Assembly (NCBI RefSeq): GCF_021531435.1
Contig: NZ_JAFBIS010000003.1
Location: 1 to 64,000, forward strand
From: Oscillibacter valericigenes
GTDB taxonomy: Bacteria > Bacillota > Clostridia > Oscillospirales > Oscillospiraceae
DNA: 64,000 nucleotides
Reading direction: 5' to 3'
Position 1 is the stretch's first letter. Every line of letters starts with the position of its first letter. Shown here piece after piece: positions 21,726 through 57,943 of this stretch. A program made the position numbers and the translations under genes. The notes beneath the pieces were generated by a model. It worked only from the letters and a program-made list of their open reading frames with translations, did no database searches and had not been told where the DNA came from.

Positions 21726-21763
21726 AAAAAAGGCAGGGGAAGCTTACTTGCGTATCTTCCTCT
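21726..21763 (-). terminator. riboswitch expression-platform terminator
   Basis: Minus-strand RNA AGAGGAAG (21763-21756) pairs with CTTCCCCT (21742-21735, one mismatch), followed by GCC and six U. The 5' arm overlaps CAGAG, the 3' side of the P1 stem of aptamer 2, so ligand binding would compete with terminator formation. Confidence 0.6.
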
Positions 21764-21924
21764 GTCTTTTTGCCAGTTGGTTATAGCCTCATTGGCGCCA
21801 TTTGAAAATGGTCTTTCCAAAGCACCGTCCAACAGTCTTTTTTTTGCCTGTCAGTTTCCACGGAGCACGCGCCGGGCGCTCCATCTTTCCGCTTCGGCCT
21901 TCTGAAAGAATGTCTCAGGCTGTT
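21760..21924 (-). promoter_or_regulatory. tandem glycine-type riboswitch (second aptamer diverged)
   Basis: On the minus strand, aptamer 1 (21924-21831) has closing stem AACAG/CTGTT, GAGAC, a small hairpin, GCCGAAGCGG, a GGAGC..GCTCC hairpin, then CTGACAGGCAAAA..GAC, matching the order of glycine-riboswitch core elements. The linker TTGGACG follows as in known tandems. Aptamer 2 (21822-21760) has stem CUUUG/CAGAG, GGAAAGACC hairpin GGCGCC, and CAACTGGCAAAAAGACAGAG, but its CCGAAG core reads CCAATG. It lies upstream of the saccharopine-dehydrogenase-like gene, an unusual target. Confidence 0.7.
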
Positions 21925-22005
21925 TTCATCCGGTTCGATATTTGATTGTGCGCCGCAAGTCCGGCGCTGCTTTCAGCAGTTGGGCCTTCGGCTGATACCG
22001 TAATC

Positions 22006-41504: not shown

Positions 41505-41802
41505 CCAAACAACAAATCAATCATCGGCAAAGGCGCTGATGGAGAAAAGTACCGCAGACGTTCGGTTCAGTGAGCGGGGGACAGTGGAAACCCCGTACCA
41601 AAGAATCTGCGCGAAGAACACTCCGTAGCTGCAATCCGAACGCGGGTTTCCGTTAGTAAGTGCGACGAGTTGTGACCGTTACATCACACGGGCTTGTTGG
41701 AGCCTTGAAGGTGACCGTCCCCGTCAGAGGGGAGGTAAATTAGGTGGCACCGCGGATAGCAGCTATTCGTCCTAAAATTTTAGGATGTAGCTGCGTTTTT
41801 TT
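41505..41802 (+). promoter_or_regulatory. T-box leader, Asn-specific
   Basis: tRNA-sensing leader. Stem I has AGTA (41548-41551) and a specifier loop GAAGAACACTCC where the codon reads AAC (41617-41619, Asn) followed by A. The conserved T-box AGGTGGCACCGCGG is at 41742-41755. The terminator (GCAGCTA 41759-41765 with TAGCTGC 41788-41794, enclosing a TCCTAAAATTTTAGGA stem, then T7) competes with the antiterminator. Uncharged tRNA-Asn should switch on asnB. Confidence 0.93.
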
Positions 41803-41897: not shown

Positions 41898-43481
41898 ATG
41901 TGTTCCATCATGGGTTTTTCCAAGAAGACCTACACCAAGGAAGAAATTCGTCCCTATTTTGACCGCACCGTCTCCCGCGGCCCCGACATGAGCCGCATCA
42001 TTGAAACCCCGTCCGGTTACCTCTGCTTCCACCGCCTGGCCATCATGGGCCTGACGGAGGCCGGTATGCAGCCCTTTGAGCTGGACGGCGACTACGTGGT
42101 CTGCAACGGCGAGATCTACGGCTTCCGCCCCCTGAAGCGGCAGCTGGCTGAAAAAGGCTACGAGTTCAAAAGCGGCAGCGACTGTGAAATTCTGCTGCCC
42201 CTGTTCCGGGAATACGGCCTGTCCATGTTCTCCCGGCTGGACGCCGAGTTCGCCCTCATTATTTACGATTCCATGACCGACTCCCTCATCGCCGCCCGTG
42301 ACCCCATCGGCATCCGCCCCCTGTTCTACGGCTACGACAAGGACGGCGCCATCATGTTCGCCAGCGAAGCCAAGAACCTCATCGGCCTGTGCAAGGAAGT
42401 CTGCCCCTTCCCTCCCGGCCACTATTACGCCTACGGCAAGTTCGTCCGCTACGCTGACCTGACCACCGTCCGCAGCTACTCCGGCGACGATTTGGAGACC
42501 GCCTGCAAGCATATCCGCGACAAGCTGATCGCCGGCGTTGACAAGCGGCTGGACGCCGACGCCCCCCTGGGCTTCCTGCTCTCCGGCGGCCTGGACTCCT
42601 CCCTGGTGTGCGCCATCAGCGCCATCGTGCTGGGAAAGAAAATCCGAACCTTCGCTATCGGCATGGATAAGGACGCCATCGACCTGAAGTACGCCCGGGA
42701 AGTCGCCGACTACATCGGCGCCGACCACACCGAGGTCTACATGACCCGCCAGCAGGTGCTGGACTCCCTGGAGGAGGTCATCGCCATGCTGGGCACGTGG
42801 GACATCACCACCATCCGGGCCAGCATGGGCATGTACCTGTGCTGCAAGGCCATCCATGAGCAGACCGACGTCCGCGTCCTGCTGACCGGCGAGATCTCCG
42901 ACGAGCTGTTCGGCTACAAGTACACCGACTTCGCCCCCAGCGCCCAGGCCTTCCAGGACGAGGCCAAGAAGCGGGTGGATGAGCTTTACATGTACGATGT
43001 GCTCCGGGCCGACCGTTGCATTTCCGTCAACTCCCTGGAGGCCCGGGTTCCCTTCGGCGACCTGGACTTCGTAAAATACGTTATGAGCATCGATCCCAAG
43101 CTGAAGCTGAACACCTACGACATGGGCAAGTACCTGCTGCGCCACGCCTTCGAGAAGGACCACCTGCTGCCCGACGACATCCTGTGGCGCCAGAAGGCCG
43201 CCTTCTCCGACGCCGTGGGCCACTCTATGGTGGACGACCTGAAGGCCTACGCCGAGGAGAAATACACCGACGAGGAGTTCGAGACCCTGCGCCGCAAGTA
43301 CGACTACTGCACGCCCTTCACCAAGGAGAGCCTGCTGTACCGCGAAATTTTCGAGAAGTATTATCCCGGCCAGGCACCGATGATCAAGGATTTCTGGATG
43401 CCCAACAAATCCTGGGAGGGCTGCAACGTCAACGACCCCTCCGCCCGTGTTTTGGCAAACTACGGTGCCAGCGGCAAGTAA
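41898..43481 (+). CDS. asnB: asparagine synthase (glutamine-hydrolysing)
   Basis: 527 residues. N-terminal class II glutaminase with Cys2 as nucleophile (MCSIMGFSKK; RGPDMSRI, FHRLAIMGL, VVCNGEIY), then the synthetase half with PP-loop LLSGGLDSSLVCAI and EVADYIGADHTEVY. Makes Asn from Asp, Gln and ATP. Controlled by the upstream Asn T-box, so regulation matches function. GGAGG precedes the ATG. Confidence 0.96.
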   Translation: MCSIMGFSKKTYTKEEIRPYFDRTVSRGPDMSRIIETPSGYLCFHRLAIMGLTEAGMQPFELDGDYVVCNGEIYGFRPLKRQLAEKGYEFKSGSDCEILLPLFREYGLSMFSRLDAEFALIIYDSMTDSLIAARDPIGIRPLFYGYDKDGAIMFASEAKNLIGLCKEVCPFPPGHYYAYGKFVRYADLTTVRSYSGDDLETACKHIRDKLIAGVDKRLDADAPLGFLLSGGLDSSLVCAISAIVLGKKIRTFAIGMDKDAIDLKYAREVADYIGADHTEVYMTRQQVLDSLEEVIAMLGTWDITTIRASMGMYLCCKAIHEQTDVRVLLTGEISDELFGYKYTDFAPSAQAFQDEAKKRVDELYMYDVLRADRCISVNSLEARVPFGDLDFVKYVMSIDPKLKLNTYDMGKYLLRHAFEKDHLLPDDILWRQKAAFSDAVGHSMVDDLKAYAEEKYTDEEFETLRRKYDYCTPFTKESLLYREIFEKYYPGQAPMIKDFWMPNKSWEGCNVNDPSARVLANYGASGK

Positions 43482-48691: not shown

Positions 48692-48720
48692 TTGCAACTC
48701 CTGACGCCCCATGTTATACT
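48692..48720 (+). promoter_or_regulatory. phospholipase-family gene promoter
   Basis: TTGCAA (48692-48697), 17-base spacer, TATACT (48715-48720). Confidence 0.75.
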
Positions 48721-48752
48721 GTGGCCGTTCAGGAGCTTTGGAGGTAACTGCC

Positions 48753-49301
48753 ATGCAAAAACGCAGCCATACCCTTCTGGCCTCCGCCCTTCTGCGGAGT
48801 CAGGAAGGCTTTGACGCCAGACGGTTTGAGCTGGCTTTTCTGTTCGGCTCTTTCCAGCCGGACTGCAATCCTTTCAGTTACCTGAAGGGCTCCCTCCGGG
48901 CCAGGAAGTTCGGCGGGCACAACTACACCAATTCCCACGATTATATCATCGCCCACATCGAACGCCTGCAGCGGCGCCGCACCGCATGGACCATGTGGCA
49001 GTATTACACGCTGGGCAAGCTGACCCATTATCTGGCGGATGCTTTCACCTATCCCCACAACGAAAATTTCCCCGACACCATGCTGGACCACCACCGCTAC
49101 GAGACGGACCTCCGCCAGTATCTGGCAGGCTACCTGGCCCACAAAAACCCCCGGCGGCTGAAGAGCTGCCAGGAGCTGACCGCCGCCCTGGAGGAGCTTC
49201 ACGAACAGTACATGGCCGCTCACGCCACCATGAACCGGGATATTCGCTATATCCTGCAAGCCACGGAATTGCTGATGGCAGGCTGTGTTCCCACCGCCTG
49301 A
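48753..49301 (+). CDS. zinc-dependent phospholipase C-family protein
   Basis: 182 residues. His/Asp-rich zinc sites of the family are seen: ALLFGS-like FLFGSFQPDCNPF, GGHNYTNSHDYIIAHI, LGKLTHYLADAFTYPHN and LDHHRYETDL. Unlike clostridial alpha-toxins it has no signal peptide or lipid-binding C2 domain, so it is probably an intracellular relative with unknown substrate. GGAGG precedes the ATG at 48753. Confidence 0.82.
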   Translation: MQKRSHTLLASALLRSQEGFDARRFELAFLFGSFQPDCNPFSYLKGSLRARKFGGHNYTNSHDYIIAHIERLQRRRTAWTMWQYYTLGKLTHYLADAFTYPHNENFPDTMLDHHRYETDLRQYLAGYLAHKNPRRLKSCQELTAALEELHEQYMAAHATMNRDIRYILQATELLMAGCVPTA

Positions 49302-49384
49302 TTTCGTCAGAAAGCGCATTTCCCCCGTTCTTTTTCCGTTTATTTTTGGATAGATTTACAATTTCCTTTTCCCGGCCGAAGTGT

Positions 49385-49390
49385 TATGCT
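49385..49390 (+). promoter_or_regulatory. probable -10 of the aromatic operon
   Basis: TATGCT at 49385-49390, about 38 bases before the leader peptide start. The -35 region (T-rich, near 49363-49370) is poor. Confidence 0.4.
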
Positions 49391-49428
49391 TTAAACATCT
49401 AAAGAACCCAGAAGGAGCACCGCCTGTT

Positions 49429-49527
49429 ATGACCAACACCGCCCGCACTGCTGAATACCGCTACTTTAGCTTTACCTACTTTTATGGTAAGGCTTATTTC
49501 GGTTTGGCTGAAAGCGTGCGTGTGTAA
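49429..49527 (+). CDS. aromatic leader peptide of an attenuator
   Basis: A 32-codon ORF: MTNTARTAEYRYFSFTYFYG then KAYFGLAESVRV and stop. Within residues 10-24 nine of fifteen are Tyr (5) or Phe (4). AAGGAG lies 11 bases upstream. It ends 31 bases before a terminator and is followed by the first enzyme of aromatic synthesis. This is the hallmark of a ribosome-stalling leader peptide sensing charged tRNA-Tyr and tRNA-Phe. There is no Trp codon. Confidence 0.88.
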   Translation: MTNTARTAEYRYFSFTYFYGKAYFGLAESVRV

Positions 49528-49589
49528 GTCGGTTTTCCAAAAACTGTTCGTACATGAAGGCCCGCAGCCAACCGGCTGCGGGCCTTTTT
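49501..49589 (+). promoter_or_regulatory. attenuator: antiterminator and terminator before DAHP synthase
   Basis: Terminator stem GGCCCGCAGCC / GGCTGCGGGCC (49559-49569 with 49574-49584), loop AACC, then T5. The segment GGTTTGGCTG (49501-49510), within the leader ORF just after the aromatic codons, can pair with CAGCCAACC (49565-49573), which includes part of the terminator 5' arm and loop. A ribosome stalled on Tyr/Phe codons leaves this free and permits readthrough; one that reaches the stop at 49527 covers it and allows termination. Confidence 0.85.
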
Positions 49590-49625
49590 CACACCAATAC
49601 CCGTCAAAATAAGGAGGAACTTATT

Positions 49626-50639
49626 ATGATCGTCATTCTGAAACAAAATCCAAACCGTGACCAGCTGGAAAGCCTCATCGCCTGGCTCCAGGAAAAAGGC
49701 GTCACCATCCACACCAGCATCGGCGAAGCCCACACCATCCTGGGTCTGGTGGGAGACACCTCCAAGCTGGACATCGACCTGATCTCCGCCCTGGACATCG
49801 TAGAGGATGTGAAGCGCGTCCAGGAGCCTTACAAGAACGCCAACCGCAAGTTCCACCCCGAGGACACCGTCATCCAGGTGGGCAACACCCAGATCGGCGG
49901 CGGCAACCTGACCATCATGGCGGGCCCCTGCTCCGTGGAGAGCGAGGAACAGGTGGTGGCCATCGCCAAGGCTGTCAAGGCCAGCGGCGCAACCATGCTC
50001 CGCGGCGGCGCCTTCAAGCCCCGCACCTCCCCCTACTCCTTCCAGGGCCTGGGCGCCACGGGCCTCGAGTACCTGAAGATCGCCCGGCAGGAGACCGGCC
50101 TGCCCATCGTCACCGAGCTGATGGACCTAAGCCAGCTGCCCCTGTTCAAGGATGTGGACGTCATCCAGATCGGCGCCCGGAACATGCAGAACTTCGATCT
50201 GCTGAAGGCTGTGGGCCATCAGGACAAGCCCGTGATGATCAAGCGCGGTATGTCCGCCACCTATGAGGAGTGGCTGATGAGCGCCGAGTACGTCATGGCC
50301 GGCGGCAACGAAAACGTCATCCTCTGCGAGCGCGGCATCCGCACCTTTGAGAGCTACACCCGCAACACTCTGGATCTGGCGGCCATTCCCGTTCTGAAAA
50401 AGCTGACCCATCTGCCCATCATCATCGACCCCAGCCACGCCACCGGCAAGAGCTGGCTGGTGGAGCCCCTGGCCATGGGCGCCGTGGCCACCGGAGCCGA
50501 CGGCCTCCAGATCGAGGTCCACAACGACCCCGCCCATGCCCTGTGCGACGGCCCCCAGTCCCTGAAGCCCGAGGTGTTCGATCCCCTGGCCAGAAAGCTG
50601 CTGAAGCTCCACGAAATGATGAAGACCCTGGAGGGCTGA
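49626..50639 (+). CDS. aroF: 3-deoxy-7-phosphoheptulonate synthase (DAHP synthase)
   Basis: 337 residues. Condenses phosphoenolpyruvate and erythrose-4-phosphate, the first step to aromatic amino acids. N-terminal ferredoxin-like regulatory domain (MIVILKQNPNRDQLESLIAWLQEKGVTIH, about 1-70), then a type I-beta barrel: MAGPCSVESEEQ, GGAFKPRTSPYSFQGLG, IQIGARNMQNFDLLKAVG, PVMIKRGM, PIIIDPSHATGK. AAGGAGG precedes. First enzyme gene after the attenuator, with tyrA four bases behind. Confidence 0.96.
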   Translation: MIVILKQNPNRDQLESLIAWLQEKGVTIHTSIGEAHTILGLVGDTSKLDIDLISALDIVEDVKRVQEPYKNANRKFHPEDTVIQVGNTQIGGGNLTIMAGPCSVESEEQVVAIAKAVKASGATMLRGGAFKPRTSPYSFQGLGATGLEYLKIARQETGLPIVTELMDLSQLPLFKDVDVIQIGARNMQNFDLLKAVGHQDKPVMIKRGMSATYEEWLMSAEYVMAGGNENVILCERGIRTFESYTRNTLDLAAIPVLKKLTHLPIIIDPSHATGKSWLVEPLAMGAVATGADGLQIEVHNDPAHALCDGPQSLKPEVFDPLARKLLKLHEMMKTLEG

Positions 50640-50643
50640 GCGC

Positions 50644-51480
50644 ATGAAGGTTGGTATCGTCGGCCTGGGGCTCATCGGCGGCTCCATGGCAAAAAGCACC
50701 AAGGCCCGCACCGCCCACACGGTCTGGGGCGTTGACCTGGACGCCGAGACTATGACCATGGCCCGGATGTGCGGCGCCATCGACGCACCGCTGACGGATG
50801 AAAACCTGCCCCAGTGTGACCTGATCCTGGTGGCCATCCGTCCCGGCGCCGCCGTTGAATGGGTGCGGCGGAACGCGGACATCATCAGCCGGTCCGCCAT
50901 ACTGGTAGACCTGTGCGGTGTGAAGCGCGTTGTGGTGGAGGGCATCGGCCCCATCGCCGAGCAGCACGGCTTCGCCTACATCGGCGGCCATCCCATGGCC
51001 GGTAAGGAACGGGGGGGCTTTACCGCCGCCACCGATGACCTGTATGTGGGCGCCTCCATGATCCTGACGCCGGACCGGCGGACGGATATGCAGCTTCTGG
51101 AAACGCTGAAGAGCTTTTTCCTGGACATCGGCTTTGCCGGCCTGACCTTCTCCGACCCGGAGGAGCATGACCGCATCATCGCCTTTACCTCCCAGCTGGC
51201 CCATATCACCTCCAGCGCCTACGTGAAGTCTCCCGAGGCCCAGCGCCGCCGGGGCTTCTCCGCCGGAAGCTTCCAGGACATGACCCGCGTGGCCCGGCTG
51301 GACGAGGACATGTGGACGGAGCTGTTCCTGGACGACGCCGACTACCTGACGAAGGAGCTGGGCGAGCTGATCCGCCACCTGACGGAATATCAGGAGGCTC
51401 TGGAGGCCCGGGACGCGGAAAAGCTCCGCGCCCTGCTGAAGGATGGCCGGGAAAAGAAGGCCACCGCGGGCGGGAACTGA
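50644..51480 (+). CDS. tyrA: prephenate dehydrogenase
   Basis: 278 residues. Makes 4-hydroxyphenylpyruvate for Tyr. NAD-binding MKVGIVGLGLIGGSMAKS; IGGHPMAGKERGGFTAAT with the substrate region; HDRIIAFTSQLAHITSSAY. No ACT domain at the C-terminus, so feedback control may rest on the attenuator and on DAHP synthase. It begins four bases after the DAHP synthase stop. Confidence 0.94.
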   Translation: MKVGIVGLGLIGGSMAKSTKARTAHTVWGVDLDAETMTMARMCGAIDAPLTDENLPQCDLILVAIRPGAAVEWVRRNADIISRSAILVDLCGVKRVVVEGIGPIAEQHGFAYIGGHPMAGKERGGFTAATDDLYVGASMILTPDRRTDMQLLETLKSFFLDIGFAGLTFSDPEEHDRIIAFTSQLAHITSSAYVKSPEAQRRRGFSAGSFQDMTRVARLDEDMWTELFLDDADYLTKELGELIRHLTEYQEALEARDAEKLRALLKDGREKKATAGGN

Positions 51481-51837
51481 CGCCTTCGAGGGGGAGCAGG
51501 CTCCCCCTTGACCTCCCCCACCCCCAGTGACATCGGTCACTGGTGTGTGCGCCCCAGGGTCGCACGGGTCAAGGTATTTCTGTCAGGCACATGTCCTGAC
51601 AAAAATGATTGAAATTTCTTCATTCGCCGCTGGCGAATAAACTGGGGGAAAGCGGCGAAGCGCCGCCTGTGGCGGAAGAAGCGAGCCGCTTTCGAGGCAG
51701 CGGCACGATTGGCGGCTCCGGCAGGAGCCGGGAATCGTAACGCCGCAACGGTGCTAACCGAAGGTTTCCCCTAGACCCCTTTCCTGTGGGGGCTCCCCCA
51801 GAAATTTTGTTTCCATATTATAATAAGGAGGGACCCT
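51481..51837. other. structured intergenic region inside the aromatic cluster
   Basis: No ORF is supported. It holds a chain of inverted repeats: GGGGGAG..CTCCCCC (51490-51506), CAGTGAC..GTCACTG (51525-51542), TGTCAGG..CCTGACA (51581-51601), TTCGCCG..CGGCGAA-like (51621-51637), GCGGCG..CGCCGC (51652-51668) and GGCTCC..GGAGCC (51713-51732). A late A/T tract with TATAAT and AAGGAGG leads into aroB. Confidence 0.6.
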
Positions 51838-52905
51838 ATGTCCTCCATTCAGACCATCCAAGTCCATACCGCCCCCGCCTATGAAGTGTCCATCGGCGGC
51901 GGGCTGCTGCATACCTGCGGCCAGCGCCTCCGGGAGGTGCTGGCCCCCTGCCGCGTTGCCGTCATCACCGACAGCACCGTGGCCCCCTTATATCTCAAGA
52001 CGGTGACCGGCAGCCTGGAGGGTGCCGGGTTCACCGTCTGTTCTTATATCTTCCCCGCCGGGGAAGGCAGCAAGAATTTTACCACGCTGTCCGCTATTCT
52101 GGAATTTCTGGCGAAGCAGCGGCTGACCCGCACGGACTGCGTCGCGGCCCTGGGCGGCGGCGTTACCGGAGACATGGCCGGCTTTGCCGCCGCCTGCTAC
52201 CTCCGGGGCATCCGCTGCGTCCAGCTGCCCACCACCCTTCTCTCCGCCGTGGATTCCTCCGTGGGCGGCAAGACCGCCATCGACCTGAAGGCGGGCAAAA
52301 ACCTGGCGGGAGCGTTCCTGCAGCCCGCCGCCGTGCTGTGCGACACCGACTGCCTCCGCTCCCTGCCTCCGGAGGTCTTTGCCGACGGCGCCGCTGAAGC
52401 CATCAAGACCGGCGTGCTGGATGACGAGAGCCTGTTCGCCCTCTTTGAGGACGGCACCCTCACCGCCGCGCCGGAGGAGGTCATCGCCCGGTGCGTGGGG
52501 TACAAGGCCGGGGTCGTGGAGCGGGACGAAAAGGAGCAGGGCGAGCGCCGCCTGCTGAACCTGGGCCACACGGTGGGCCACGCCATTGAAAAATGCAGCG
52601 GCTACGCCATCCCCCACGGCCACGCCGTGGCGGCGGGTCTGGCCGTCATCGCCCGAAGCGCCGAGGCCCTGGGCTGGACCGAGGAGCCCGTCGCCGCCCG
52701 CATCGCCGCCTGCCTTGCCAAAAACGGCCTGCCCACCGGCACGGATTTCTCCGCCGAAGCTCTGGCCGAGGCTGCTCTGGCGGACAAGAAGCGCACAGGC
52801 GGGGACATCACGCTGGTCATTCCGAAAAAAATCGGCGTCTGTGAATTGAAGAAAGTCCCGGTGGCGGAGCTGCTGCCTATCATCCGGGCGGGACTGGAGG
52901 GCTGA
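51838..52905 (+). CDS. aroB: 3-dehydroquinate synthase
   Basis: 355 residues. NAD- and metal-dependent second step of the shikimate pathway. Motifs: AVITDSTVAPLYL, PAGEGSKNF, VAALGGGVTGDMAGFAAACYLRGIRCVQLPTTLLSAVDSSVGGKTAIDL, ERDEKEQGERRLLNLGHTVGHAIE, HGHAVAAGL. AAGGAGG precedes. Starts the second block of the aromatic cluster. Confidence 0.97.
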   Translation: MSSIQTIQVHTAPAYEVSIGGGLLHTCGQRLREVLAPCRVAVITDSTVAPLYLKTVTGSLEGAGFTVCSYIFPAGEGSKNFTTLSAILEFLAKQRLTRTDCVAALGGGVTGDMAGFAAACYLRGIRCVQLPTTLLSAVDSSVGGKTAIDLKAGKNLAGAFLQPAAVLCDTDCLRSLPPEVFADGAAEAIKTGVLDDESLFALFEDGTLTAAPEEVIARCVGYKAGVVERDEKEQGERRLLNLGHTVGHAIEKCSGYAIPHGHAVAAGLAVIARSAEALGWTEEPVAARIAACLAKNGLPTGTDFSAEALAEAALADKKRTGGDITLVIPKKIGVCELKKVPVAELLPIIRAGLEG

Positions 52906-52906
52906 A

Positions 52907-54079
52907 ATGGACATTCGCATCATCCCCCAAAAGCTGCGCGGCGCTGTAACGCCTCCCGCCAGCAAGTCCATGGCCCACCGGGCGGTGCTGGCAATGGCGC
53001 TGGCAGGCGGAACAGGCACCCTCTCCAATCTCAGCGACTCCCAGGACATTCAGGCCACGAAACGCTGCGTGGCGGCATTGAAAGACCCCCGGCCCGAGGG
53101 CGAACTGCCCTTCCTGGACTGCGGCGAATCCGGTTCCACCCTCCGCTTTCTCATTCCCATCGCCCTGGCGGTGGCGGGTGGCGGCGTGTTCACCGGGCAC
53201 GGCCGCCTGATGGAGCGGCCCCAGCAGCCTTACTTCGATATTTTTGACGAAAAGGGGATTTTTTACGGGCAAACGGACGGCGTGCTCACCGTCCGGGGCA
53301 CGCTGACCCCCGGCGTGTACCGTCTTCCCGGCAATGTGTCCAGCCAGTTCGTTACGGGCCTGCTGTACGCCCTGCCTCTGCTGCCGGGAGACTCCACCAT
53401 AGAAATCACTACGCCGCTGGAGTCCGGCGGATATGTGGACATGACGCTGGACATGCTGGAAAAGTTCGGCATTTCGGTGCAAAACAAGAACTATGCGGTG
53501 TTTCATATTCCCGGAAATCAGGTATACCAAGGCCGGGACATCACCGTGGAGGGCGACTGGTCCCAGGCGGGTTTCTGGTACGCCGCAAACTTTTTGGATA
53601 ACCAGGTCGCCATTCAGGGCCTGAACGCCGATTCCACCCAGGGGGACCGGGTGGTGGCCTCCCTCTACTGGAAGCTGGCAAAGCCCGGGGATACGGACAT
53701 CGATGTGTCCGGCTGCCCCGACCTGCTGCCGCCCCTGGCGGTGATGGCGGCGGTGCGGAGCGGGACCACCCGCTTTGTGAACGCCGCGCGGCTCCGCATC
53801 AAGGAGAGCGACCGCCTCGCCACCACCGCCGCTCTGCTGAACGCCCTGGGCGGACACGCGGAGGAAGGGCCGGACAGCCTGACCGTCCGCGGCGTTCCCG
53901 CCTTTTCCGGCGGCACCGTGGACGGTGCCAACGACCACCGCATCGTCATGGCGGCGGCCATCGCCGCCACCCGCTCCTCCGCCCCGGTGACCATTCTGGG
54001 GGCGGAAGCGGTCCGAAAATCCTACCCCTCCTTCTGGGAGGACTACAAACAGCTGGGAGGTGTTTTTGATGTCTTCTGA
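52907..54079 (+). CDS. aroA: 5-enolpyruvylshikimate-3-phosphate synthase
   Basis: 390 residues, slightly short of the usual 420-430. PPASKSMAHRAVLAMAL (shikimate-3-phosphate site), LDCGESGSTLRFLIP, LPGNVSSQFVTGLLYALP, RIKESDRLATTAALL and NDHRIVMAAAIAA. The family LGNAGTA/DCGESG region is of the GESGSTLRF type as in Gram-positives. One base after aroB; overlaps aroC by 11 bases. Confidence 0.95.
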   Translation: MDIRIIPQKLRGAVTPPASKSMAHRAVLAMALAGGTGTLSNLSDSQDIQATKRCVAALKDPRPEGELPFLDCGESGSTLRFLIPIALAVAGGGVFTGHGRLMERPQQPYFDIFDEKGIFYGQTDGVLTVRGTLTPGVYRLPGNVSSQFVTGLLYALPLLPGDSTIEITTPLESGGYVDMTLDMLEKFGISVQNKNYAVFHIPGNQVYQGRDITVEGDWSQAGFWYAANFLDNQVAIQGLNADSTQGDRVVASLYWKLAKPGDTDIDVSGCPDLLPPLAVMAAVRSGTTRFVNAARLRIKESDRLATTAALLNALGGHAEEGPDSLTVRGVPAFSGGTVDGANDHRIVMAAAIAATRSSAPVTILGAEAVRKSYPSFWEDYKQLGGVFDVF

Positions 54080-55160
54080 ATTCGGAAAGCTGCTGCGGGT
54101 GTCGGTGTTCGGCCAGTCCCACGGCAAGGCTATCGGTGTGAACATTGACGGTCTCCCTGCGGGAGAAGCCATCGACATGGACGCTCTGAACGCTTTCCTG
54201 GACCGGCGGAAGCCGGGAAAGAGCCGTCTGTCCACACAGAGACGGGAAGCGGACGCCCCCATTTTTTTATCAGGGATAGAAAAGGGTGTCACCTGCGGTT
54301 CACCGCTGTGCGCCATGATTGAGAACAGCGACCAGCATTCCTCGGATTACAGTGAGCTTGCCGATAATCCCCGGCCCTCCCACGCGGACTACACCGCCTG
54401 GGTGAAGTGGGGCGGGCAGGCCGACATGCGGGGCGGCGGCCACTTCTCCGGCCGCCTGACGGCTCCGCTGTGCATCGCCGGCGGCATCGCCAAGCAAATT
54501 CTGGCCCGCCGGGGCGTGTATGTGGGGGCCCACCTGTCCTCCGTCGGCACGGAAAACGATTCCGCTTTCCCCCTGCGGCCCACCGCCGTCCTCTTTGACG
54601 AGGTGGCCGCCAAGCCTTTCCCCGTGCTGGACGACCGGGCCGGGGAGCGGATGCAGGCCCTCATTCTGGAGGCCCGGCAGAACCTGGACTCCGTGGGCGG
54701 CGTCATTGAATGCGCCGCCGTCGGCATCCCCGCCGGGCTGGGCGACCCCATGTTCGACGGTATCGAGAACCGCCTGGCGGCGGCCCTGTTCGGCATCCCC
54801 GCCGTGAAGGGCGTGGAGTTTGGCCTGGGCTTCGGCTCCGCCCGGCTCCACGGCTCGGAGAACAACGACCCCTTCACCGTGGAAAACGGGCAGATCGTCA
54901 CGGAGACGAACCGCGCCGGAGGCATCCTGGGCGGCATCACCACCGGAATGCCCATCACGCTGCGGGTGGCCATCAAGCCCACCCCGTCCATTTCCCAGGC
55001 CCAGCGGACCGTCAGCCTGTCGGCAAAAGAGCCGGCGGAGCTGGTGATCCGGGGCCGCCACGACCCATGCATCGCCCACCGGGCCGTCCCGGTGGTGGAG
55101 GCCGTCACCGCGACGGTATTACTTGATCTACTTTTGGAGGGACATCATGGAACTTTCTGA
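54069..55160 (+). CDS. aroC: chorismate synthase
   Basis: 363 residues. FMN-dependent last common step to chorismate. FGQSHGKAIGVNIDGLPAG (usual FGESHG; here Gln), RRKPGKSRLSTQRREAD, GGGHFSGRLTAPLCIAGGIAKQIL, GLGDPMFDGIENRLAAALFGIPAVKGVEFG and RHDPCIAHRAVPVVEAVTA. I start at ATG 54069 since GGGAGG lies ahead at the right spacing. Confidence 0.96.
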   Translation: MSSEFGKLLRVSVFGQSHGKAIGVNIDGLPAGEAIDMDALNAFLDRRKPGKSRLSTQRREADAPIFLSGIEKGVTCGSPLCAMIENSDQHSSDYSELADNPRPSHADYTAWVKWGGQADMRGGGHFSGRLTAPLCIAGGIAKQILARRGVYVGAHLSSVGTENDSAFPLRPTAVLFDEVAAKPFPVLDDRAGERMQALILEARQNLDSVGGVIECAAVGIPAGLGDPMFDGIENRLAAALFGIPAVKGVEFGLGFGSARLHGSENNDPFTVENGQIVTETNRAGGILGGITTGMPITLRVAIKPTPSISQAQRTVSLSAKEPAELVIRGRHDPCIAHRAVPVVEAVTATVLLDLLLEGHHGTF

Positions 55161-56283
55161 AATTCGCACAAAAATCGACGCCGTGGACGACCAGCTGCTG
55201 GACCTGTTCCTGCAGCGCATGGAATTGTCCGAAGAGGTGGCCGCCTATAAAAACGAGCACAACCTGCCCATTTTGAACAAGGCCAGAGAGCGGGAGATCC
55301 TGGCCAAGGTCACGGAAAAATCCGGCGAGAAGGAGCGGTATGCCTACCACCTGTTCTCCACCCTCTTTGAGCTGGCCCGCTCCCGGCAGGCGGAGCTGAT
55401 CAACGCTCCCACCCGGGTCCAGTCCCAGGTGGAAGCATCCCTGGCCGCCGGCGGCCCCGTGTTCCCTCAGACGGGCCTGGTGGCCTGCCAGGGCGTGGAG
55501 GGCGCCAACTCCCAAGTGGCCTGCGACCGCATCCTGCCCCGGGGCAACATCGTGTACGTCAAGACCTTTGAGGCGGTGGTCTCCGCCGTGGAATCCGGCC
55601 TGTGCAAATTCGGCGTGCTGCCCATCGAGAACAGCTCCAATGGCTCCGTCCGCGCCGTTTACACCCTGCTGCAGGAGCACAACCTCTCCGTTGTCCGCTC
55701 CACCCGGCTGTGCATCCGCCACGAACTGCTGGCCAAACCGGGCGTGAAGATGAGCGATATTACGGAAATTTACTCCCATGAGCAGGCGCTGGGGCAGTGC
55801 AGCAAGTTCCTGAACGGTCTCAACGGCGTCCGGGTCATCCCCTGCGACAACACCGCCATGGCCGCCAAGATGGTTGCCGAGAGCGGAAACCGCCACGCCG
55901 CCGCCATCTCCTCCCATCCCTGCGCCGCGCTGTACGGCCTGGAGTGCATCAGCGACGCCATTCAGGACAGCGACAACAACTACACCCGGTTCTTCTGCAT
56001 CGCGAAAGACCCCGTCATCTACGCCGGCGCCAACCGCATCAGCCTCATCATCGCCTGCGACAACAAGCCCGGCGCCCTGTATGAGATCCTGTCCAAGCTG
56101 GCCGCATTGAACATCAACATGACCAAGCTGGAATCCTGCCCGGTCAGCGGCCGGAATTTTGAGTTCATCTTCTTCCTGGAGCTGGAGGCCTCCGTTCAGG
56201 ACCCCAGCGTTCTGCCCATGCTCCGGGAACTGGAACGCAGCTGCGCCAGCTTCAATTTCCTGGGCAGCTACACGGAAGTCTGA
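55147..56283 (+). CDS. pheA: bifunctional chorismate mutase/prephenate dehydratase
   Basis: 378 residues, three domains: AroQ chorismate mutase (about 1-90, ELSEIRTKIDAVDDQLLDLFLQRM), prephenate dehydratase (about 105-285, VACQGVEGANSQVA, FGVLPIENSSNGSV, TRFFCI) and a C-terminal ACT domain (about 295-378, RISLIIACDNKPGALYEILSKL..ESCPVSGRNFEFIFFLE) for Phe feedback; the ESRP motif is ESCP here. Overlaps aroC by 14 bases, GGAGG in place. Confidence 0.95.
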   Translation: MELSEIRTKIDAVDDQLLDLFLQRMELSEEVAAYKNEHNLPILNKAREREILAKVTEKSGEKERYAYHLFSTLFELARSRQAELINAPTRVQSQVEASLAAGGPVFPQTGLVACQGVEGANSQVACDRILPRGNIVYVKTFEAVVSAVESGLCKFGVLPIENSSNGSVRAVYTLLQEHNLSVVRSTRLCIRHELLAKPGVKMSDITEIYSHEQALGQCSKFLNGLNGVRVIPCDNTAMAAKMVAESGNRHAAAISSHPCAALYGLECISDAIQDSDNNYTRFFCIAKDPVIYAGANRISLIIACDNKPGALYEILSKLAALNINMTKLESCPVSGRNFEFIFFLELEASVQDPSVLPMLRELERSCASFNFLGSYTEV

Positions 56284-56286
56284 GCC

Positions 56287-57531
56287 ATGGCCGGGAAAAT
56301 TTACGGCCTGCTGGGACGCAAGCTGGGGCACAGCTGGTCCGTGCCCATCCACACCGCCCTGGGCTGCGGAGGCTACCGGCTCATAGAGCTGGAGCCGGAG
56401 GAGCTGGAGGGCTTTCTCAGCCAGCCGAACATCGGCGGGCTGAATGTCACCATCCCCTACAAGCGGGATGTGATGCCTTTCTGCGACGTCATCGACCCGC
56501 TGGCCCAGGCCATCGGCAGCGTCAACACCCTGACCCGCCGGGCCGACGGGAAGCTGTACGCCTTCAACACTGACGCCGCCGGCTTCTGCTGGATGGTGGA
56601 GCGGGCAGGCATCTCCTTCGCCGGGAAAAAGGCGGTGGTGCTGGGCAGCGGCGGCGCTTCCCTCACCGCCGTGGCCTGCGCGAAAAAGCTGGGCGCCCGG
56701 GAGGTGGCGGTCATATCCCGCTCCGGGCCTGACAACTACACCAACCTGGACCGCCACGATGACGCGGACATCGTGGTGAACACTACGCCGGTTGGGATGT
56801 ACCCCAACACCGGCGCCGCGGCGGTGGACCTGACGGCTTTTCCCCGCTGCCGGGGCGTGCTGGACGTAGTCTACAACCCCCGGCGCACTGCTCTGCTGCT
56901 GCAGGCCGAGGCGCTGGGCATCCCCTGCTCCGACGGACTGCCCATGCTGGTTGCCCAGGCCAAGGCCGCGGAAGAGCATTTCTTTGAAAAGTCCATTCCG
57001 GACAGCGAAAATGAGCGTATCCTGGCCATGCTGCGGCAGGAGTGCACCAACATCGTCCTCATCGGAATGCCCGGCTGCGGAAAATCCACTGTCGGCCAGG
57101 CGCTGGCGGAGCTGACGGGCCGGGAGGCCATCGACATCGACCAGCGCATCGTGGAACGGACCGGCCGCCCCATCCCGGAGATCTTCGCCCAGGACGGCGA
57201 GGCCTCTTTCCGGGCGCTGGAGCGAGAGGAGACGGCGGAGGCCGGCAAGCTGTCCGGCAAAATCATTCTGACCGGCGGCGGCGTCATCAAGGATGAGCGG
57301 AACTACGCTTCCCTGCATCAAAACTGCCGCATTTACCACCTCATCCGGGACTTGAACGTCCTGCCCACCGACGGCCGTCCCCTGTCCCAGGGGGCCGACC
57401 TTGGTGCCATGTGGAGAGAGCGGGAGCCGCTGTACACCCGGTTCCGGGACGCGGTCATCCGGAACGACGGCACGGTCCGGGAAGCCGCGCAGGAAATTTG
57501 GAGGGATTTTTGTGAAAATTCTGGTACTTAA
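56287..57531 (+). CDS. aroE-aroK: shikimate dehydrogenase-shikimate kinase fusion
   Basis: 414 residues, two enzymes in one chain. Residues 1-250: AroE (YGLLGRKLGHSWSVPIHTALG, NVTIPYKRDV, GSVNTL, AFNTDAAGFCW, VLGSGGAS, NTTPVGMYPN). From about 255: AroK (IVLIGMPGCGKSTVGQALAELTGR Walker A, IDIDQRIVERTGRPIPEIFAQDGEASFRALE, ILTGGGVI, DGRPLS lid region). The linker DSENERILAMLRQE is short. It covers two consecutive-but-one reactions of the pathway. Confidence 0.94.
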   Translation: MAGKIYGLLGRKLGHSWSVPIHTALGCGGYRLIELEPEELEGFLSQPNIGGLNVTIPYKRDVMPFCDVIDPLAQAIGSVNTLTRRADGKLYAFNTDAAGFCWMVERAGISFAGKKAVVLGSGGASLTAVACAKKLGAREVAVISRSGPDNYTNLDRHDDADIVVNTTPVGMYPNTGAAAVDLTAFPRCRGVLDVVYNPRRTALLLQAEALGIPCSDGLPMLVAQAKAAEEHFFEKSIPDSENERILAMLRQECTNIVLIGMPGCGKSTVGQALAELTGREAIDIDQRIVERTGRPIPEIFAQDGEASFRALEREETAEAGKLSGKIILTGGGVIKDERNYASLHQNCRIYHLIRDLNVLPTDGRPLSQGADLGAMWREREPLYTRFRDAVIRNDGTVREAAQEIWRDFCENSGT

Positions 57532-57943
57532 CGGGCCCAACATGAACATGCTGGGCATCCGCCAGCCGGAGATCTACGGCAAGGCCACCTATCAGGACCT
57601 GTGCGGCATGCTTCAGGCTGAGGCGGACAAGCTGGGCGTGGAGATCAGCTTCTTCCAGTCCAACCATGAGGGCGCGCTGGTGGACGCCATCCAGCAGGCC
57701 TATTTCGACAAGGTGGACGGCATCATCATCAATCCGGCGGCCTACACCCACACCAGCGTGGCGCTGCTGGACGCAGTAAAGGCGGTGGGCATCCCCACGG
57801 TGGAGGTCCACGTCTCCGACCCGGACAGCCGGGAGGAGTTCCGGCATGTATCCTACATTCGTGCCGCCTGCGTGGGGACCATCCGGGGCCACGGCCTGCC
57901 GGGGTATCTGGAAGCCCTTCATCTTCTGTGCGGGAGAAACTAA
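57512..57943 (+). CDS. aroQ: type II 3-dehydroquinate dehydratase
   Basis: 143 residues. Third step of the pathway. KILVLNGPNMNMLGIRQPEIYG with the catalytic Tyr, SNHEGALVDAIQQA, INPAAYTHTSVALLDA, VEVHVSDPDSREEFRHVSYI and GTIRGHGLPGYLEAL (catalytic His and Arg). The start is a GTG 20 bases inside aroE-aroK with GGAGGG ahead. Last gene, followed by a terminator. Confidence 0.95.
   Translation: MKILVLNGPNMNMLGIRQPEIYGKATYQDLCGMLQAEADKLGVEISFFQSNHEGALVDAIQQAYFDKVDGIIINPAAYTHTSVALLDAVKAVGIPTVEVHVSDPDSREEFRHVSYIRAACVGTIRGHGLPGYLEALHLLCGRN

Follow-up and report, generated by a model that had tools for sequence, protein, structure and literature searches.

The locus and its leader

The window, that is, the whole 64,000-nt stretch of DNA that was analysed, lies on contig C33 of a 2.8 Mb genome that is 96.8% complete. 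It contains eight same-strand genes whose identities indicate that together they make chorismate, phenylalanine and tyrosine (Table 1). The genes are presumably co-transcribed, with a gap of about 360 nt between genes 2 and 3 of the putative operon. Among the named relatives, which are mostly metagenome assemblies, the closest DAHP synthase genes are found in a Clostridia MAG (96%) and in Oscillibacter-labelled records, O. valericigenes included (87–94%).

Table 1. Features of the leader and the putative aromatic operon in the window
Feature	Coordinates	Strand	Description	Basis
Putative promoter	49362-49390	+	-35-like TTTCCT (49362-49367), 17-nt spacer, TATGCT	
Extended -10 TGTTATGCT	49382-49390	+	GTGnTATgCT	Kept across an alignment of 38 upstream regions from close relatives
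Shine-Dalgarno-like AAGGAG	49412-49417	+	11 nt 5' of the leader ATG	gaaaGga-type consensus in 38 aligned regions
Leader ORF	49429-49527	+	32 codons, MTNTARTAEYRYFSFTYFYGKAYFGLAESVRV; Tyr/Phe codons within 10-24 predicted to be regulatory	Sequence; conservation in relatives
Segment 1, GCTGAATACCG	49450-49460	+	Can pair with 49500-49508, keeping segment 2 away	In the MFE fold
Coding hairpin, 5' arm, AGCTTTACC	49468-49476	+	Encodes Ser-Phe-Thr	Pairing in type I loci; covariation
Coding hairpin, 3' arm, GGTAAGGCT	49486-49494	+	Encodes Gly-Lys-Ala	Pairing; covariation; near-fixed synonymous codons
Segment 2, CGGTTTGGCTG	49500-49510	+	Candidate antiterminator 5' arm, within the leader ORF	Covariation
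Segment 3, CAGCCAACCG	49565-49574	+	Candidate antiterminator 3' arm, within the terminator 5' arm and loop	Covariation; swap test
Intrinsic terminator	49557-49589	+	13-bp stem, AACC loop, T tract	
DAHP synthase	49626-50639	+	First structural gene	NCBIfam NF006421 and TIGR01361, above cut-off
Downstream genes	50644-57943	+	Prephenate dehydrogenase, aroB, aroA, aroC, then the next three	NCBIfam, several below cut-off; ORFs
Downstream genes, continued	within 50644-57943	+	Chorismate mutase-prephenate dehydratase, aroE-aroK fusion, aroQ	

The leader ORF carries nine aromatic residues (Y10, Y12, F13, F15, Y17, F18, Y19, Y23 and F24) and no tryptophan, and its translation bears out the original prediction of nine Tyr/Phe codons among residues 10–24. 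When the 726 short ORFs (12–70 codons) of the window were counted, the leader ORF being taken from an in-frame upstream GTG, nine Tyr/Phe in 15 codons were found in this ORF alone, and at least seven in two ORFs, this one included, the other not exceeding seven. The strong terminator that had been claimed directly before DAHP synthase is also present; it has the form AAGGCCCGCAGCC-AACC-GGCTGCGGGCCTT with a T tract running to its last base, and a 53-nt piece that spans it folds at -30.2 kcal/mol (z -6.4). A simple sigma-70 pattern scan returned no promoter at the leader, and the corresponding terminator scan, which is too crude, returned no terminator there. Adjoining the leader upstream is an ORF of about 182–196 aa (48711-49301, + strand), for which no NCBIfam match was obtained at E<=0.001.

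Within the leader no Rfam 15 family reached its gathering cut-off. The Phe_leader model (RF01859) scored 16.4 bits against a cut-off of 55 and the trpB motif (RF04312) 24.2 bits against 59 (E 0.28), while T-box (RF00230) gave no match in the window at gathering and none within 49300-49650 at E<=10. The host genome has 18 T-box matches, eight of them above the cut-off, which indicates that T-boxes are in use there, not at the DAHP locus. One T-box-like leader lies elsewhere in the window (41527-41777, + strand; 89.4 bits, under the 93-bit cut-off), 5' of a gene at 41898 that by eye is asparagine synthetase-like. The window also holds a glycine riboswitch (21758-21933, - strand; glycine-GGAnGA, RF03166, 155.5 bits).

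Distribution of the leader among relatives

DAHP synthase loci were gathered by genus, family, order, class and phylum, and 361 of the 362 located loci had enough upstream sequence. The choice was not random: the top-scoring loci of each search were taken together with about one per further genus selected by hand, the genus set being limited to the 30 top scorers among 54 matching genomes, and six "order" loci coming from same-family genomes that the order search returned. A locus was scored by its best short upstream ORF, and at least six Y/F/W in 12 codons were counted as a leader. Such ORFs were present at 238 of the 361 loci; the reverse strand gave 25 and dinucleotide shuffles 18.7. With at least eight Y/F/W the counts became 122 against 1 and 0.1. 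Removal of 12 duplicates left 349 distinct loci, 229 of them with a leader: the window itself (1/1), 26/26 in the genus, 54/61 in the family, 42/61 in the order, 37/72 in the class and 66/79 among named relatives. The alignment check proposed along with the original prediction, which asked for aromatic runs in related genomes, thus found the ORF conserved in genus and family. In the rest of the phylum the frequency of 3/49 is that expected by chance (5–7%), and two of these three leaders (L367 and L368) look genuine.

No aromatic leader was detected at 19/61 order and 35/72 class loci; among 20 such leaderless loci (18 order, 2 class) none had a T-box at the gathering score. Out of 20 DAHP loci from the rest of the phylum, five carried a T-box, which by its coordinates is directly 5' of the DAHP gene in L204, L354 and L358 and further off in L205 and L207. 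Aromatic leaders before DAHP synthase were also seen in contigs labelled Treponema (L077, L080) and Oligosphaeraceae/Lentisphaerae (L055, L070), and these may reflect either horizontal transfer of the gene with its leader or mis-binned contigs.

A terminator of -9 kcal/mol or stronger follows the ORF in 223 of the 229 leader-bearing loci (own 1, genus 26, family 54, order 42, class 35, rest of phylum 2, named 63); a cruder terminator scan sometimes chose a stronger hairpin elsewhere within 450 nt. This bears on the alternative that translation of the leader acts through some other coupling, e.g., Rho or initiation of DAHP synthase translation, and not through intrinsic termination. The stop codon and the region beyond it do vary in position among relatives, as such coupling would allow, but nearly all leader-bearing loci have a strong stem plus T tract ahead of the gene, and this stem has the top covariation score of the four stems counted, so that this alternative is judged very improbable.

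The antiterminator

The pairing of GGTTTGGCTG (49501-49510) with CAGCCAACC (49565-49573), proposed earlier as an antiterminator, is as it was described, and one further C-G pair (49500, 49574) can be added. In the window alone this duplex does not differ significantly from shuffles (-16.2 vs -15.2, p 0.3), and support for the antiterminator is therefore comparative. The comparison was based on 76 type I loci, the window included, that were chosen by the motif F[TASN]...[GS]KA, and on an alignment (A2) of 48 rows, the window among them, drawn from 75 distinct type I references; the 27 omitted were near-duplicates and the divergent rows L035, L070, L127, L128, L129, L131, L132, L135, L255 and L307.

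In A2 the terminator stem is paired in 97.6% of cells with two-sided changes in 8 of the 9 pairs counted, and the antiterminator in 89.6% with two-sided changes in 7 of 11 pairs, and thus covariation, which had been suggested as a check on both stems, is present in each. For the antiterminator 18 two-sided cells were counted against 4.4 in shuffles, a value reached in 0 of 500 shuffles and lying well above slid controls. Divergent partners illustrate the point: GGUUUGGCUG × CAGCCAACC in the window, GGUUUGAC × GUCAAACC in L118, UUCUGCUGUGGA × UCCGCGGCAGA in L140 and GUUUCGCUGC × GCAGUGAAAC in L292. When segments 2 and 3 were swapped between loci, pairing weakened from -13.5 for own partners to -10.9 kcal/mol, and none of 5000 permutations was as good; a swap cost 2.7 kcal/mol in the full set of 65 distinct loci and 3.7 when the 34 with DAHP identity <85% were taken, although the own segment 3 was the best or tied partner in just 6/65 and 5/34 of them, respectively. 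Across all leader types, 83 of 221 loci passed the antiterminator test against shuffles at p<=0.05 and 35 at p<=0.01; against swaps 56 of 221 passed at p<=0.05, and the window is not among the passing loci.

Segment 1 could compete for segment 2. This pairing occupies 82.6% of cells in A2, its two-sided changes being no higher than in slid controls, and when compared with synonymous recoding it reached p<=0.05 in 9/76 loci (window p 0.85).

A hairpin within the leader ORF

The original prediction overlooked a hairpin that, on comparison of sequences, is a conserved feature of the leader ORF. Its arms, AGCUUUACC × GGUAAGGCU, form 9/9 pairs in 70 of the 76 type I loci and eight in the other six, with an average of 8.92 pairs vs 6.87 after random synonymous recoding; in 53/76 loci both arms are identical to AGCTTTACC/GGTAAGGCT. 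Since type I loci were selected by motif, the selection constrains which amino acids the hairpin encodes, but not the codons used for them. Two-sided changes were seen at two of its pairs (A-U to G-C and C-G to U-A), giving 5 cells vs 0.3 in shuffles; one of the five measures applied, the number of further pair types, did not exceed shuffles (equalled in 135 of 500). The loop, largely made of Tyr/Phe codons, is 9 or 12 nt long in 70/76 loci and ranges over 6–21 nt.

The codons of the hairpin are near-fixed. In 41 close loci (DAHP identity >=87%) GGT occurs in 40/41, GCT in 41/41 and TTT in 41/41, and in the adjoining Gly-Leu-Ala TTG occurs in 39/39; the DAHP genes at these loci favour GGC, GCC, TTC and CTG, and in them GGT, GCT, TTT and TTG have frequencies of 0.12, 0.06, 0.18 and 0.05, respectively. 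AAG and ACC of the hairpin are conserved too, yet these are common codons in DAHP genes. With near-fixed and mostly rare codons, the conserved core of the leader peptide therefore seems to be kept for its RNA. This also answers the proposal that the ORF encodes a functional small protein and the terminator merely lowers basal expression, for which the peptide core SFTYFYGKAYFGLAE, well kept across genus leaders, would speak: conservation is at the nucleotide level and against the preference of the DAHP genes, the peptide beyond the aromatic run varies in length (the stop codon is not conserved in position and lies 0–51 nt downstream of the GKA codons across the 76 type I loci), and the antiterminator covaries. 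Of all the alternatives weighed here, this one appears the least probable.

Such fixity, with almost no synonymous change, would also be expected if the hairpin and flanking RNA bound a protein or a small molecule, in the manner of a riboswitch or TRAP, the aromatic ORF being a by-product. Against this, aromatic runs persist at class loci that have no type I hairpin motif (none of the 76 type I loci comes from the class set), the frame and the identity of the codons are preserved, Trp codons track a Trp gene (see below), the loop varies in length and the leader contains no Rfam family at cut-off. A binding site of this kind is thus unlikely, if marginally less so than the two alternatives above.

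A second type of leader, with the core GFYFSAGYF and often with Trp, was observed in deeper Clostridia (L188, L079, L316, L315, L332 and others). In this class-level leader, ...FWGFYFSAGYLFC..., the codons GGC-UUU-UAU-UUU-AGC-GCU could by eye fold into a comparable short stem-loop; UAAUGAGU × ACUCAUUA was likewise read by eye as a candidate antiterminator.

Ribosome position and the proposed mechanism

The effect of a translating ribosome was modelled by masked folding of the nascent RNA through segment 3, where bases under the ribosome (assumed footprint, A-site -17 to +11) were barred from pairing. The antiterminator probability was 0.49 without a ribosome, 0.89–0.98 with the A-site at codons 1–21, 0.64 at codon 22 and 0–0.03 at codons 23–33. 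Accordingly, stalls at codons 10–19, which hold seven of the nine aromatics, would permit the antiterminator and read-through, while those at 23–24 would not. A ribosome on any of codons 1–21 would free segment 2, and the geometry is therefore workable without singling out the regulatory codons. Of the 76 type I loci, 60 gain at least two antiterminator pairs with a stalled ribosome relative to one at the stop codon; 2 show the opposite.

It had been proposed that a ribosome stalled on the aromatic codons frees the antiterminator and that one at the stop codon masks it. The first part stood, as a stall on codons 10–19 does free segment 2 in the masked folds, but the second did not in its simple form: with a footprint of the usual size a ribosome at the stop codon covers only about the last four bases of segment 2, and the stop codon itself is variably placed. 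When the full-length RNA was folded at equilibrium, the terminator prevailed (0.97) in all five of the ribosome states reported, and hence the switch would have to be kinetic, with timing deciding the outcome. This agrees with attenuation theory (PMC1183508).

The following course of events can be proposed. Transcription would begin near 49397 and a ribosome would load onto the leader ORF. If Tyr or Phe were short, the ribosome would stall on codons 10–19 with segment 2 free, and as segment 3 emerged the antiterminator would form before segment 4 was made, so that polymerase would read into the operon. If both amino acids were plentiful, the ribosome would reach codons 23–33, where its footprint would keep segment 2 from segment 3; pairing of segment 1 may also withhold segment 2, and the terminator would form. 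Judged by the trp and his leaders, the most likely role of the coding hairpin is to halt RNA polymerase for a time, until the first ribosome arrives and unfolds it, which would couple both machines. A hairpin located within regulatory codons would offer a clear target for tests of RNA polymerase–ribosome coupling in Clostridia.

Comparison among relatives shows conservation of the ORF, the terminator, the antiterminator and the coding hairpin, which for the stems takes the form of paired changes. Four hallmarks of an attenuator were found, i.e., a leader ORF with codons for the end products, a terminator, an alternative antiterminator (by comparison) and a suitable stall geometry (in silico). 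Attenuation by a Tyr/Phe leader peptide, as originally read, is supported by the conserved ORF, two covarying stems, the masked-fold geometry and the lack of a T-box or other Rfam element at cut-off in the leader. From these sequence data we consider it very probable that the leader acts as a ribosome-mediated transcription attenuator, which would respond to charged tRNA-Tyr and tRNA-Phe and thereby govern expression of the chorismate-Phe-Tyr operon.

Tryptophan codons and the amino acids presumably sensed

Some relatives carry Trp codons in their leaders, and the relation of these codons to tryptophan synthesis was followed through the gene for indole-3-glycerol-phosphate synthase (IGPS). The candidates were 139 genomes, namely that of the window and 138 whose leader has at least seven aromatics. 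Of these, 80 were tested, comprising 20 of the 21 with a Trp-codon leader and 60 of the 118 others, which were hand-picked with most genus members left out. IGPS was present in 16/20 genomes with a Trp-codon leader vs 16/60 without (Fisher 4e-5, relatedness ignored), and in the class-level genomes in 11/12 vs 5/16 (0.002, relatedness ignored). In 4/20 genomes the gene was absent despite a Trp-codon leader.

A search of the host genome for two Trp-pathway families gave no IGPS and no Chorismate_bind match, which fits a leader with Tyr/Phe codons only. The claim that the leader senses only two end products is in this respect consistent with its own genome, but does not extend to those relatives that have Trp codons. 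The series of leaders (Tyr/Phe and Tyr/Phe/Trp), tied to the pathways that were retained, could serve as a test bed for the evolution of attenuators.

Aromatic leaders before other genes

R1, a covariance model built on type I leaders, gave matches at E<=0.01 in 53/61 genus genomes and 83/300 family genomes. By eye, the strong matches are mostly at known DAHP sites, and 20 apparently elsewhere were retrieved; genes downstream of them were named from sequence unless NCBIfam is stated. Aromatic leaders were found before tyrA (L400; NCBIfam prephenate dehydrogenase, below cut-off), aroB (L414, L415) and chorismate mutase-prephenate dehydratase (L417), and, with Trp, before a TrpB-like gene (L405, L406; NCBIfam above cut-off for that of L405). 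Others precede a PaaK-like ligase (L399, below cut-off) or an acyl-CoA ligase (L401, L403, L404, L407). At L421 (4914-10244, - strand) a Tyr/Phe leader and a terminator are followed by an acyl-CoA ligase, the alpha and beta subunits of indolepyruvate ferredoxin oxidoreductase (NCBIfam above cut-off) and a PaaK-like ligase (below cut-off); L422 (1684-5671, + strand) has by eye the same arrangement through the oxidoreductase beta subunit. No leader-plus-gene of note was seen at matches L409, L410, L412, L413 and L418, and at L411 the match is before a tyrA-like gene and the leader ORF is absent. L416 was rejected as a non-DAHP match, as it proved to be upstream of DAHP synthase.

At L405, L406 and L426 a leader that combines Trp, Tyr and Phe codons (AFYWYWFSFTD.../AFYWFWFSFTD...) lies upstream of the gene for a TrpB-like PLP enzyme; in L426 that gene is followed by a PaaK-like ligase and a small protein that by eye is ACT-like. 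Ile-rich ORFs occur at two R1 matches, one before an acyl-CoA synthetase (L402) and one before an acetolactate synthase-like gene (L408). The first (L402/L423, 1401-3743, + strand) reads MLNFVTGIIIIISIIIIIIDN... with a run of isoleucines. The gene after it encodes an AMP-binding protein that in NCBIfam comes closest to MbcS, below cut-off, and it is possible that this leader is an Ile attenuator of 2-methylbutyrate salvage.

An aryl-CoA ligase was detected at E<=1e-60 in 138/300 family genomes, and none was found in the host genome. A Phe/Tyr leader as a general feature of this gene was rejected, since leaders are rare among the 30 testable loci (31 were taken and one was dropped for too little upstream sequence): at least six aromatics were found in 5/30 and at least seven in 4/30, against 1 and 1 on the reverse strand and 0.75 and 0.1 in shuffles. 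The four convincing ones (L434, L435, L443, L404) come from genomes already indicated by R1, and the fifth, L445, is without a terminator; one of the loci with at least seven aromatics is unconvincing.

Ligase and indolepyruvate oxidoreductase genes of gut bacteria are usually read as catabolic. A Tyr/Phe leader before them suggests salvage of arylacetate to Phe/Tyr that is controlled by starvation. We put forward, tentatively and as rather less than an even chance, that this group of Clostridia employs an aromatic leader-peptide regulon instead of T-boxes, with codons fitted to synthesis capacity, and that in a few members it also covers arylacetyl-CoA ligase/indolepyruvate oxidoreductase operons. 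If such a regulon exists, these operons would run in the biosynthetic direction and not catabolically. Leaders before unexpected genes allow the function of such genes to be tested directly.

Relation to known systems

Classical Tyr+Phe leader-peptide attenuation was originally described as mainly an enterobacterial theme, which is too strong for Firmicute leader peptides in general in view of those with Leu (PMC5794164) and His codons (PMC2965389; PMC9413887) and of a Phe uORF in Acholeplasma (PMC8632094). The last, the uORFC-13-1 motif, is described there with 24 representatives from Acholeplasma and environmental sequences only, upstream of aroF (PMC8632094). It resembles the present leader in having a uORF with at least one Phe codon and a terminator before the DAHP synthase gene and in the attenuation proposed for it; it is set apart by its description, which in the passages on the motif does not mention a Tyr run. 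The Leu-rich ilv-leu attenuator of S. aureus likewise represents leader-peptide attenuation in a Firmicute, with mutants selected, but according to the part of PMC5794164 that concerns it, it responds to branched-chain amino acids and its proposed antiterminator pairs with the poly-U tail. His leaders of Bacillus, some Eubacteriales and Erysipelotrichales are, in the corresponding parts of PMC2965389 and PMC9413887, Firmicute leader-peptide attenuators too, some of them in Clostridia; they differ in their His codons and in their genes (his, hisS, hisZ), and 17 genomes are involved in PMC9413887. The main text of a 2024 survey of fifty genomes, with eight uORF candidates, contains none of the terms DAHP, aroF and phenylalanine (PMC11109978). 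No description of a Tyr/Phe leader before DAHP synthase of Clostridia was recognised in open-licence PubMed Central, and an earlier mention is possible. Aromatic regulation in low-GC Gram-positives was reportedly treated by Panina et al. in FEMS in 2003.

The T-box found before DAHP synthase in other classes of Bacillota shares with the leader the gene, the uncharged-tRNA signal and transcription read-through; it differs in binding tRNA directly and in needing no translation. The T-box is the more familiar switch in Clostridia. Control of the entry step of aromatic synthesis can now be predicted for many gut Clostridia to depend on a translated Tyr/Phe sensor and not on a T-box. Ribosome-mediated attenuators of enterobacteria include the trp, his, pheA and pheST leaders. 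With these enterobacterial attenuators the leader described here has in common the regulatory codons, the terminator, the alternative antiterminator and the control of a matching operon (general mechanism, PMC1183508). Unlike them, it belongs to another bacterial class, has DAHP synthase as the first gene, would respond to Tyr and Phe jointly and has a conserved hairpin around regulatory codons. The mechanism is classical; what seems to be new is the Tyr/Phe attenuator of DAHP operons across Clostridia, in which a hairpin runs through the regulatory codons.
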